The notes beneath the pieces were generated by a model, which was given only the letters and a program-made list of their open reading frames with translations, was not told the DNA's origin and searched no databases. From Negativicutes bacterium (GTDB taxonomy: Bacteria; Bacillota; Negativicutes; Sporomusales; JAOACF01), in NCBI GenBank assembly GCA_026417995.1, contig JAOACF010000015.1:1-32948 (forward strand): a DNA stretch of 32,948 nucleotides, given 5' to 3'. Position numbers and translations under genes: made by a program. Positions within the stretch are counted from its first letter, which is position 1. Each line of letters begins with the position of its first letter. Of the stretch, positions 23,380 to 29,512 are shown piece after piece.

Positions 23380-23419
23380 AAACAGAAAGCCCCTATTGAC
23401 CTTGCTGGTCAATAGGGGC
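23380..23419 (-). terminator. Regulated terminator of the leu T-box
   Basis: On the minus strand GCCCCTATTGACC and GGTCAATAGGGGC form a perfect 13-pair stem (23419 to 23389) with a 5-base loop, followed by TTTCTGTTT. Its 5' arm follows the T-box sequence, the standard competing terminator. Confidence 0.93.
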
Positions 23420-23596
23420 GGGGTGTGCCGCGGTACCACCCTACTTGGGTCTCATTCCAATAACGCCTGGTCAGCGCTTCCGCCTACCGGTTTTCAGCGG
23501 AAGAGTTCCTGGGCGAGCTTCACCTGCAGCGCCGCGCCGGTTCGCACCTCCACCGGCTCTCTGCAACGGACGTCCTGCGGCTTTTTCCCAGTCATT
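23389..23596 (-). promoter_or_regulatory. T-box leader sensing tRNA-Leu (specifier CUC)
   Basis: On the minus strand the core AGGGTGGTACCGCGGC lies at 23427-23442; the bulge TGGT would pair with an ACCA tRNA end. Stem I shows AGAGAGCCGGTGG and GCGAACCGG, closed by CTGGG...CCCAG. Just inside that base the loop reads AAG-CTC-G, so the specifier is CUC at 23515-23517. That pairs with the GAG anticodon of tRNA-Leu and matches the downstream leucine genes. When uncharged tRNA-Leu binds, the antiterminator should form and transcription continue. Confidence 0.9.
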
Positions 23597-23626
23597 ACCG
23601 ATACCACTATGCAACTTGCAAACAGT

Positions 23627-23673
23627 AAAAAAATCCTGCGGGAAATTTCTCTTTACAAGAAACTTTCCGCAGG
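23627..23673 (-). terminator. Regulated terminator of the first (ykkC-class) riboswitch, leu leader
   Basis: On the minus strand CCTGCGGAAAGTTTC (23673-23659) pairs with GAAATTTCCCGCAGG (23649-23635), 13 of 15 positions, then ATTTTTTT. The 5' arm overlaps the conserved 3' end of the aptamer, so ligand binding and termination should be mutually exclusive. Confidence 0.88.
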
Positions 23674-23765
23674 GTCTTTTATACCCACGGTGTAGCGCAA
23701 CTCATCGCCGCGCTTTGCATCGCTCGGACCAGACCTGACACCAGCGGAACCCTAGATGCACTTTC
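23667..23765 (-). promoter_or_regulatory. ykkC-class riboswitch aptamer, probably ppGpp type (subtype 2a), leu operon
   Basis: On the minus strand the RNA contains the ykkC hallmarks in order: CTAGGGTTCCG, GGTCCGAG, then TACACCGTGGGTATAAAAG followed by ACCCTGCGG. GCATC/GATGC and GCGC/GCGC helices can form between them. ykkC RNAs comprise guanidine (type 1), ppGpp (2a), PRPP (2b) and further subtypes. Type 2a is the one known upstream of branched-chain amino acid genes, where ppGpp turns expression on. The subtype is inferred from context, not from diagnostic residues. Confidence 0.82.
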
Positions 23766-23790
23766 TTGGTATTTTTGTGATTTTGTATAC

Positions 23791-23818
23791 ATTATACCAT
23801 GACAAAAGTCCATGTCAA
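23791..23818 (-). promoter_or_regulatory. Promoter of the leuACDB-ilvD operon
   Basis: On the minus strand TTGACA (23813-23818) and TATAAT (23791-23796), both perfect, are 16 bases apart. The transcript would begin near 23784, just before the aptamer, giving a leader of about 470 bases. Confidence 0.88.
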
Positions 23819-25796: not shown

Positions 25797-27458
25797 TTAA
25801 GGGATGGACACGAATTGATTTACTCCCGTTCCCGGCACAGTCATCGGCGTTACTAAATCATCTGTTGCGATGTTCGCCACAATCACGACCGGGCCTGTGG
25901 TTTTCAGCGCTAAAGCGAAGGCCTGCGCAAACTCGTCCGGGCTTGACGCCACCATCGCTTTGATGCCGAATGCGCCGGCAAAAGCGGTAAAGTCCACCGG
26001 TTTTAAGGCGCACGCGGTATAGCGCCGGTCAAAGAATACATGCTGAAGCTGGCGGATCATGCCGAGGCAATTGTTATTAATAATAATCGAAATAATGGGT
26101 AAATCATGATTGGCTGCGGTATACAGCTCTGCTCCCGTCATCTTGAAGCCGCCGTCGCCGGCAAAATGAATAACCCGCTTATCCGGAACGCCGAACTGCG
26201 CCCCCACCGCTGCCGGCAGACCAAAGCCCATAGCTCCCAGCCCCCCCGAAGTAAGCCAGGTGCGCGGCGCCTCAATGGCCAGATGTTGTGCCGCCCACAT
26301 CTGGTGCTGTCCGACATCCGTTACGTATACATAGGAGCCGTCAGCGGTTTGCGCGGCGATATGGCGCATGATCCAGGGCGCATTCAAAGTATCCTCCCGG
26401 TACACAAAGCTGGCTTCATTCCGCCACTTTTCAAGCATCGCCTGCCATCCAGCCAAGTTCTTCGCTTTGCAAGCCGCCGCAAGCTCGGCGATAATTGCCG
26501 GGGTGTTGCCCACCAAGCCGAGATGGGTGTCAACATTTTTGTGGATCTCTGCCGGATCAACGTCGATATGAATCAGGATTTTTCCCTGCGTATACCGCTG
26601 GCGGTCGCCGGTGACACGATCGCTGAACCGGCTGCCGACAGCGATAATAACGTCTGCAGCATGCACCGCGTTATTAGCCGGCTTAGAACCATGCATGCCC
26701 GTCATTCCCAAGAACAGCTCATGTGATGCGGGAAACGCCCCTAAGCCCATCAAGGTGCTGACTACCGGAATACGGCACTTTTCCGCCAGCGTCCGGATTT
26801 CCCGGGAAGCGCCGGCGGTAACTGCCCCTCCGCCTACGACAATCAGCGGCCTTTCTGCCTGGCTGATTGCCGCAGCCGCCTGCGCAAGCGCCTGCGCCTG
26901 CGCGGCTGGCACCGGGGCGTTGCTCTCTTCCGAAGGGACTGCAGGAGTAAACTCCGCATGCGCCGTCTGCACGTCTCGCGGTACATCCACCAGGACCGGT
27001 CCCGGGCGGCCGGAAGATGCGATTTTAAAAGCGTACCTGAGGATCTCGGCCAAACGCTTTACGTCTTTGACAATAAAGTTATGCTTAGTAATGGGCATGG
27101 TGATGCCGGTAATGTCCACTTCCTGAAAAGCATCCCGTCCCAAAAGGCTTGTCGGCACTTGTCCGGTAATGGCAACAACCGGAACGGAGTCCATAAAAGC
27201 GGCGGCAAGGCCGGTCACTAAATTTGTGGCGCCCGGCCCCGATGTAGCGATACATACTCCGACCTTGCCGCTCGCCCGCGCATATCCGTCCGCCGCATGG
27301 GCCGCCCCCTGTTCATGAGCGGTAAGAACATGCAGGATGGGAGCGGCCAGAAGCGCATCATACAAGGGAAGGATCGCACCGCCCGGATACCCGAAAACCG
27401 TGTCAACTCCTTGTTCTTTCAAGCATTCAACAATAATAGCTGCTCCTGATAGCCGCAC
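25797..27458 (-). CDS. ilvB: Acetolactate synthase large subunit
   Basis: This 553-residue thiamine-diphosphate enzyme makes acetolactate or acetohydroxybutyrate from pyruvate. Markers are VFGYPGGAILPLYDAL, the catalytic Glu in TAHEQGAAHAADGYARASG, SGPGATNLVTGLA, and the ThDP-binding GDGGFKMTGAELYTAANHDLPIISIIINNNCLGMIRQ. The start is GTG at 27456-27458 (MRLSGAAIIVECL), 8 bases after AAGGAGG; the longer GTG start (27482) contains that site. It is the third gene of the operon, 32 bases after ilvC, separated from its regulatory subunit by ilvC. Confidence 0.96.
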   Translation of the reverse strand: MRLSGAAIIVECLKEQGVDTVFGYPGGAILPLYDALLAAPILHVLTAHEQGAAHAADGYARASGKVGVCIATSGPGATNLVTGLAAAFMDSVPVVAITGQVPTSLLGRDAFQEVDITGITMPITKHNFIVKDVKRLAEILRYAFKIASSGRPGPVLVDVPRDVQTAHAEFTPAVPSEESNAPVPAAQAQALAQAAAAISQAERPLIVVGGGAVTAGASREIRTLAEKCRIPVVSTLMGLGAFPASHELFLGMTGMHGSKPANNAVHAADVIIAVGSRFSDRVTGDRQRYTQGKILIHIDVDPAEIHKNVDTHLGLVGNTPAIIAELAAACKAKNLAGWQAMLEKWRNEASFVYREDTLNAPWIMRHIAAQTADGSYVYVTDVGQHQMWAAQHLAIEAPRTWLTSGGLGAMGFGLPAAVGAQFGVPDKRVIHFAGDGGFKMTGAELYTAANHDLPIISIIINNNCLGMIRQLQHVFFDRRYTACALKPVDFTAFAGAFGIKAMVASSPDEFAQAFALALKTTGPVVIVANIATDDLVTPMTVPGTGVNQFVSIP

Positions 27459-27490
27459 ACAGGCTCCCTCCTTTCCCTGCACAGCCGGCT

Positions 27491-28988
<1,498 letters not shown>

Positions 28989-29010: not shown

Positions 29011-29057
29011 AAAATAAAAAAGCCCCTATCGGCAAGTCTCTGCTTGCCGATAGGGGC
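29011..29057 (-). terminator. Regulated terminator of the ilv T-box
   Basis: On the minus strand GCCCCTATCGGCAAG and CTTGCCGATAGGGGC form a perfect 15-pair stem (29057 to 29022), followed by TTTTTTATTTT. Confidence 0.93.
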
Positions 29058-29285
29058 GGGTTACCGCGGTACCACCCTACATTGTACTCATGCCGCCGGT
29101 TTGGGCCGGCTCCGGCTAACGCCCGGATCGCGTCGCACTCTTATGTATACCGCATTTCAGCATACAGTATACAGTTCAATAGCGAAGTTCATGGGTGACG
29201 TAACGGCGTCAACTCCCGCACCGGCTCGCAGCGTCCACCGGCTCTCTGTGGCAGGTTAAATTGCGCTTTAATCCCAATCATCACT
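29022..29285 (-). promoter_or_regulatory. T-box leader probably sensing tRNA-Val (specifier GUC)
   Basis: On the minus strand the core AGGGTGGTACCGCGG lies at 29064-29078, with bulge TGGT. Stem I shows AGAGAGCCGGTGG and GCGAGCCGG, closed by TGGG...CCCA. At the position matching the CUC of the leu leader the loop reads TAC-GTC-A, giving specifier GUC at 29197-29199, a valine codon pairing with anticodon GAC. Valine is the sensible signal for ilvNCB. The stem I loop is less tidy than in the leu leader, so the specifier is less certain. Confidence 0.85.
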
Positions 29286-29312
29286 TGTTGCCGTATAAAT
29301 TTTTCAGTATAC

Positions 29313-29366
29313 AAAAAGACCCTGGTGAAGTTCTCTTGTTTTTGCAAGAAACCTTCCGCAGGGTCT
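29313..29366 (-). terminator. Regulated terminator of the first (ykkC-class) riboswitch, ilv leader
   Basis: On the minus strand AGACCCTGCGGAAGG (from 29366) pairs with an arm ending in AGGGTCT (to 29317), about 18 of 22 positions including TTCTTG/CAAGAG near the loop, followed by TTTTTG. As in the leu leader its 5' arm overlaps the aptamer end. The two terminators differ in sequence but keep the same position. Confidence 0.85.
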
Positions 29367-29456
29367 TTTATACCCACGGTGTAGCGCAACTCATCGCCGC
29401 GCTTTGCATCGCTCGGACCAGCCCAGCCATAGCTGCGGAACCCTAGATGCACTTTC
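29356..29456 (-). promoter_or_regulatory. ykkC-class riboswitch aptamer, probably ppGpp type (subtype 2a), ilv operon
   Basis: The same motifs as in the leu leader occur in order on the minus strand: CTAGGGTTCCG, GGTCCGAG, TACACCGTGGGTATAAAAG, ACCCTGCGG. The stretch from GGTCCGAG to the 3' end is identical to the leu copy over about 66 bases; only the hairpin between GGTTCCG and GGTCCGAG differs. ppGpp is the expected ligand because of the downstream ilv genes. A PRPP or guanidine aptamer is the alternative. Confidence 0.82.
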
Positions 29457-29483
29457 TTACGCCAAATGTGTTACTTTGTATAC

Positions 29484-29512
29484 ATTATCCCAGCGCGCCG
29501 GACTTTTGTCAA
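29484..29512 (-). promoter_or_regulatory. Promoter of the ilvNCB operon
   Basis: On the minus strand TTGACA (29507-29512) and GATAAT (29484-29489) are 17 bases apart. Transcription would start near 29478, giving a leader of about 490 bases. Confidence 0.85.

Follow-up and report, generated by a model that had tools for sequence, protein, structure and literature searches.

The 32,948-nt stretch of DNA analysed here (hereafter the window; Negativicutes bacterium, assembly GCA_026417995.1, contig JAOACF010000015.1) holds two neighbouring branched-chain amino acid (BCAA) operons, ilvNCB and a run that begins with leuA. It raises the question of which signals the ilvNCB leader reads, and how far these set the operon apart from its neighbour. 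An initial annotation had placed a second, separate ykkC-class/T-box tandem upstream of ilvNCB, and the leader indeed matches RF00442 and RF00230 and has its own promoter and two terminators (Table 1). Both scores far exceed what chance would give over the searched stretch, and both lie below the curated Rfam cut-offs.

Read 5' to 3' on the minus strand, the leader runs from the promoter through a ykkC-class aptamer, its terminator, a T-box and the T-box terminator to a GGAGG ribosome site and ilvN, followed by ilvC and ilvB in a nearly gapless array. Within this single leader, aptamer and T-box each have a separate terminator. A promoter scan of the minus strand upstream of ilvN found none besides that at 29512-29484, and none between the two terminators; the annotated stretch, 29011-29512, spans exactly the promoter through the second terminator. 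The minimum-energy fold of the whole leader yields the terminators, and was rejected as a basis for locating the specifier because it lacks a canonical stem I.

Table 1. Coordinates of leader elements and genes in the window.
Feature	Position	Strand	Evidence
Sigma-70 type promoter, TTGACA-17-GATAAT	29484..29512	-	11/12 matches, TG ahead of second hexamer
TAATGTATACAA palindrome, overlapping the -10 box and likely start site	29476..29487; also 23783-23794	-	exact match
P0 helix, 8 bp	5' strand GUAAGAAA 29460-29453; 3' strand UUUCUUGC 29344..29351	-	3' strand also part of terminator
ykkC-class aptamer, subtype 2a (ppGpp) by sequence marks	29354..29457	-	RF00442 59.9 bits, E 3.7e-10
Aptamer intrinsic terminator	~29313..29369	-	fold of 29375-29305, -33.3 kcal/mol, then U-tract
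T-box leader	29049..29290	-	RF00230 72.6 bits, E 8e-16, model positions 1-219 (full length)
T-box specifier GUC (Val)	29197..29199	-	RF00230 specifier columns; columns 97-99 of tandem alignment A1
Antiterminator, UAGGG/CCCUA + GCGG/CCGC around 7-nt bulge UGGUACC (29074-29068)	29051..29079	-	sequence, RF00230 alignment
T-box intrinsic terminator	29022..29057	-	15-bp stem, 10 GC, TTTTTT tail
ilvN, acetolactate synthase small subunit	28464..28988 (ATG 28988)	-	NF008864 200.9 bits, cut-off 119
ilvC, ketol-acid reductoisomerase	27491..28492	-	NF004017 577.4 bits, cut-off 336
ilvB, acetolactate synthase large subunit	25797..27482	-	TIGR00118 686.1 bits, cut-off 538
leuA leader ykkC aptamer	23665..23766	-	RF00442 57.5 bits; 87% identical to ilv aptamer
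leuA leader T-box, specifier CUC (Leu)	23411..23604	-	RF00230 96.5 bits

The T-box contains the mutually exclusive folds of a transcriptional switch, namely an antiterminator with a UGGN-type bulge and a terminator that shares the antiterminator 3' strand (fold of 29075-29008, -34.3 kcal/mol). The genome encodes tRNA-Val(GAC) and tRNA-Leu(GAG), each ending in an ACCA that fits the UGGU bulge; the GUC specifier is thus matched by a tRNA-Val whose discriminator base also fits. The score of 72.6 bits falls short of the RF00230 cut-off of 93 because of a hairpin inserted in stem II and a longer, variant specifier loop. The low score and the altered stem II might indicate a decayed T-box and a leader run by the ppGpp switch alone, as may be the case in five relatives of one family (f3) that keep the aptamer upstream of ilvN with no T-box. 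We regard this as very unlikely, since the leader has an intact antiterminator, UGGU bulge and terminator with U-tract, its stem I helices and stem IIA/B element (GCGUUA) are likewise undamaged, and G003, G012 and other relatives share its GUC loop.

The reading of the specifier as GUC was then the point on which the annotation itself had asked for a covariance alignment. RF00230 places the specifier columns on 29199-29197, that is on GUC, and does likewise in the other GUC leaders inspected. Comparison with 24 further tandems agrees. In the resulting set of 25 ykkC/T-box tandems from this and related genomes, with the specifier defined as the three columns before R-CC, the specifier is NUC throughout (GUC in 8, CUC in 15, AUC and UUC in one each), counts that are not independent events given that several CUC genomes are closely related. 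The stem I loop had been described as less regular; the irregularity is real, but it is a shared variant, UAC-GUC-R, found in six of the eight GUC tandems. The helix above the loop was assessed by pairing permutations in place of RNAalifold, which on the MAFFT alignment returned the lower and apical helices only; its sequence differs among leaders while pairing is kept within each, and none of 10,000 permutations was as good. When the T-box is folded by itself, the minimum-energy structure again fails to reproduce the canonical stem I and includes a hairpin, GACG-CCGUUA-CGUC, that would hide the specifier; this hairpin can also form in G012 but not in the other GUC leaders.

A loop of 10 nt, against 8 nt in the leuA leader, leaves room for a register shifted a few bases upstream, for instance to UUA (Leu), in which case both operons would read leucine, and the third tandem of the genome has CUA at the corresponding place. 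This reading is very unlikely. All 25 tandems have U and C in columns 98-99, whereas the upstream positions vary, and in L081, whose loop is just as long, CUC follows CGAUG, which offers no Leu or Val codon upstream. The Rfam placement points the same way, as does the positional rule within this genome, which returns the expected codons for tyrS (UAC), valS (GUC), leuS (CUC) and pheS (UUC), the genes being named from their reading frames. The UUA/CUA register was accordingly rejected on the column alignment of the 25 tandems.

UUC (Phe) stands at the specifier position of the T-box, accompanied by a ykkC element, upstream of a livK-like gene (L101), and of T-boxes without ykkC upstream of ilvN at six loci (L067, L083, L084, L085, L176 and L177). 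Such a codon before BCAA genes is odd; either these leaders respond to phenylalanine or their register is displaced. A codon reading alone is therefore no proof of the tRNA used.

Closer examination of the aptamer highlights the elements that bear on its ligand. Its 59.9 bits lie below the curated cut-off of 63 for RF00442 (ykkC/Guanidine-I), as expected of a subtype-2 variant, the BCAA-linked aptamers of relatives reaching about 45-63 bits. In subtype 2 a pyrimidine occupies residue 49, which is A in guanidine-I aptamers, and an extra helix, P0, is present; G96 is conserved in PRPP aptamers and lost in ppGpp aptamers (PMC6031431). The ilv aptamer has C at residue 49 (29411; GAGCG against consensus GAGAG) and a P0 helix formed by its ends, as expected of the ppGpp class (subtype 2a). 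P0 covaries over 22 aptamers: matched strands pair better than swapped ones, and one of 10,000 permutations was as good. The conserved PRPP G96 is missing, there being no G96-type S-turn in a region whose alignment is not unique, and the 3' side reads ACCC-UG-CGG or similar in this genome's and the relatives' BCAA-linked aptamers, against CCC-GGR-CGG in PRPP-type copies. The genome's own PRPP-type copy, with CCC-GGR-CGG, precedes a permease-type gene and a purE-like gene, both named from their reading frames. Because of the C at residue 49, the P0 helix and a 3' side unlike that of PRPP-type copies, the ligand is likely ppGpp, rather than guanidine or PRPP; one RelA/SpoT gene is encoded. That the element is a guanidine-I riboswitch, as the name of the Rfam model suggests and as a 2025 survey speculates for T-box/ykkC leaders of BCAA genes (PMC12452182), is extremely unlikely, since a pyrimidine replaces the A, P0 is present and the conserved S-turn G is lost, and ykkC RNAs before BCAA genes have been reported as non-binders of guanidine (PMC7266159).

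A shared global signal had been proposed for both leaders, and both carry the same ppGpp-type aptamer. The ilv (29346-29470) and leu (23656-23779) aptamers share 87% identity, including a long tract without differences, yet neither exceeds 67% identity with a relative's copy or with the genome's third copy. This pattern suggests that sequence recently passed from one leader to the other by copying or gene conversion.

Taking ppGpp as the probable first ligand and GUC as the specifier, we consider it likely that the ilvNCB leader acts as a transcription switch with two inputs in series, ppGpp and uncharged tRNA-Val, combined with AND logic. RNA polymerase starting from the single promoter would encounter the two terminators in succession. 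At the first, binding of ppGpp by the subtype 2a aptamer would keep P0 and P3 closed and their 3' strands away from the terminator, within which both strands lie; ligand binding should therefore prevent termination and turn expression on. At the second, the anticodon of uncharged tRNA-Val(GAC) would pair with the GUC specifier and its 3' ACCA with the UGGU bulge, stabilizing the antiterminator, again an ON response. Two serial terminators with no promoter between them imply AND logic, with full expression expected only when general amino acid starvation coincides with a shortage of valine.

What, then, distinguishes the two operons? Their leaders carry specifiers for different tRNAs, GUC (Val) before ilvNCB and CUC (Leu) before leuA, as initially annotated. 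The accompanying proposal of a clean division of labour, valine precursors against leucine, is not supported in that form: IlvN, IlvB and IlvC serve valine, leucine and isoleucine alike, and IlvD, common to all three, is encoded in the Leu-gated run leuA-leuC-leuD-leuB-ilvD, where its gene comes fifth (leuC, leuD, leuB and ilvD named from reading frames only). Valine synthesis therefore needs both operons. Nor is the Val reading dictated by gene content, since in ten Sporomusa-type relatives (one family) the leader of this ilvN operon has a specifier for Leu. Leucine synthesis drains the valine precursor. Two checkpoints along one pathway would fit these arrangements better than two separate product lines.

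Whole-genome searches returned five ykkC-type aptamers and 17 strong T-boxes. A third ppGpp/T-box tandem, with specifier CUC (Leu), lies outside the window (L024, C167:6500-12500) and precedes a prpB-like lyase gene and the genes of a TRAP transporter, dctP and two for membrane subunits. One would not expect a leucine switch here; perhaps the target serves uptake of a branched-chain keto or organic acid. A lone ykkC-type aptamer (L005/L026, C159:35793-35915) precedes a gene resembling glutamine amidotransferases of the glutamate synthase type; the S-turn region of this aptamer, CCC-UGG-CGG, is intermediate between the ppGpp and PRPP types.

The inputs differ among relatives. GUC stands before ilv genes in eight genomes of seven families (this genome, G003, G008, G012, G006, G011, G033 and G040). 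On the IlvN tree the ten Sporomusa-type (f8) genomes, all with CUC, group together with support, and G012, which is sister to them, has GUC; other relatives on the tree have a Leu T-box and no aptamer. From this sister split, together with the aptamer-only and T-box-only leaders, it follows that a single operon can gain, lose and retarget its inputs. G033 has two neighbouring ykkC/T-box leaders 2.6 kb apart, each upstream of a small ACT gene, together with ilvB for the AUC (Ile) leader and with ilvC for the GUC (Val) leader; the idea of one global signal with different tRNAs therefore recurs. Relatives appear to hold the same operon under different tRNAs, with a change in the first specifier base, and natural pairs such as G012 (GUC) and its ten sisters (CUC) offer a way to ask why a common pathway is gated by one amino acid over another.

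The promoters of these tandems share a further element. In the 2.65 Mb genome, TAATGTATACAA has four exact sites, namely the three tandem promoters (the third at C167:8240) and one within coding sequence, and a near-identical palindrome occurs at most relatives' ilv tandem promoters; ATAATGTATACA gives 0-8 matches per genome in eight relatives. The palindrome is a candidate shared operator; a literature search for TGTATACA with branched-chain amino acids gave no match. It is possible, though less likely than not, that the Negativicutes ppGpp/T-box AND gate moves as a module and changes its tRNA input at orthologous operons via the first base of NUC (GUC, CUC, AUC, UUC), and that the TGTATACA palindrome shared by the promoters may provide a third, protein-based input common to the set. 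As a separate observation, the stem II insert of the ilv T-box (29146-29176) is a hairpin whose stem has two more GTATAC motifs, and comparable stem II inserts with GTATA sequence occur in several relatives.

In Bacillus subtilis, the ilvB-leu operon is controlled as a whole by one Leu T-box, with a GTP/ppGpp-linked global input through the CodY protein. The ilvNCB leader resembles this system in T-box antitermination of BCAA genes and, as proposed here, in joining a GTP/ppGpp-linked global input to a tRNA input; it differs in that B. subtilis relies on a single Leu T-box and takes its global input through CodY. CodY is also present in this genome and in 26 of 28 relatives, ruling out the ppGpp switch as a stand-in for a missing CodY.

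Tandem ppGpp riboswitch/T box-Leu AND gates were reportedly described by Sherlock in 2018. Both orders, ppGpp/T box-Leu (15, ppGpp-first) and T box-Leu/ppGpp (16, T-box-first), are tabulated as AND gates in Table 2 of PMC9481103, where ppGpp is not paired with any Val, Ile or Phe T-box, although a Val example is possible in the supplement of the original ppGpp paper. The leuA leader is exactly of the ppGpp-first T box-Leu type. The ilvNCB leader shares with that type both elements, their order, the separate terminators and the BCAA genes downstream, but its T-box reads GUC (Val) in place of a leucine codon. T-box plus ykkC ('Guanidine') tandems before ilvN, ilvC and leuA have been counted in Bacillota (PMC12452182, 2025), including the architecture seen here before ilvN, which makes up 28% of the ilvN genes with contiguous riboswitches; the main text of that survey assigns neither specifier nor ykkC subtype and takes the ligand as guanidine, and the evidence presented here counts against such a guanidine-responsive reading. 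An AdoCbl/T box-Val tandem precedes valS in Blautia (PMC9481103) and is likewise a riboswitch in series with a Val T-box; unlike the ilvNCB leader, it has another first ligand (AdoCbl, an OFF switch) and another gene. The ilvNCB leader would thus be a known device with a new tRNA input, in that the ppGpp/T-box gate, described with Leu T-boxes only in the literature consulted, appears to extend to valine and, in one relative, to isoleucine as well.
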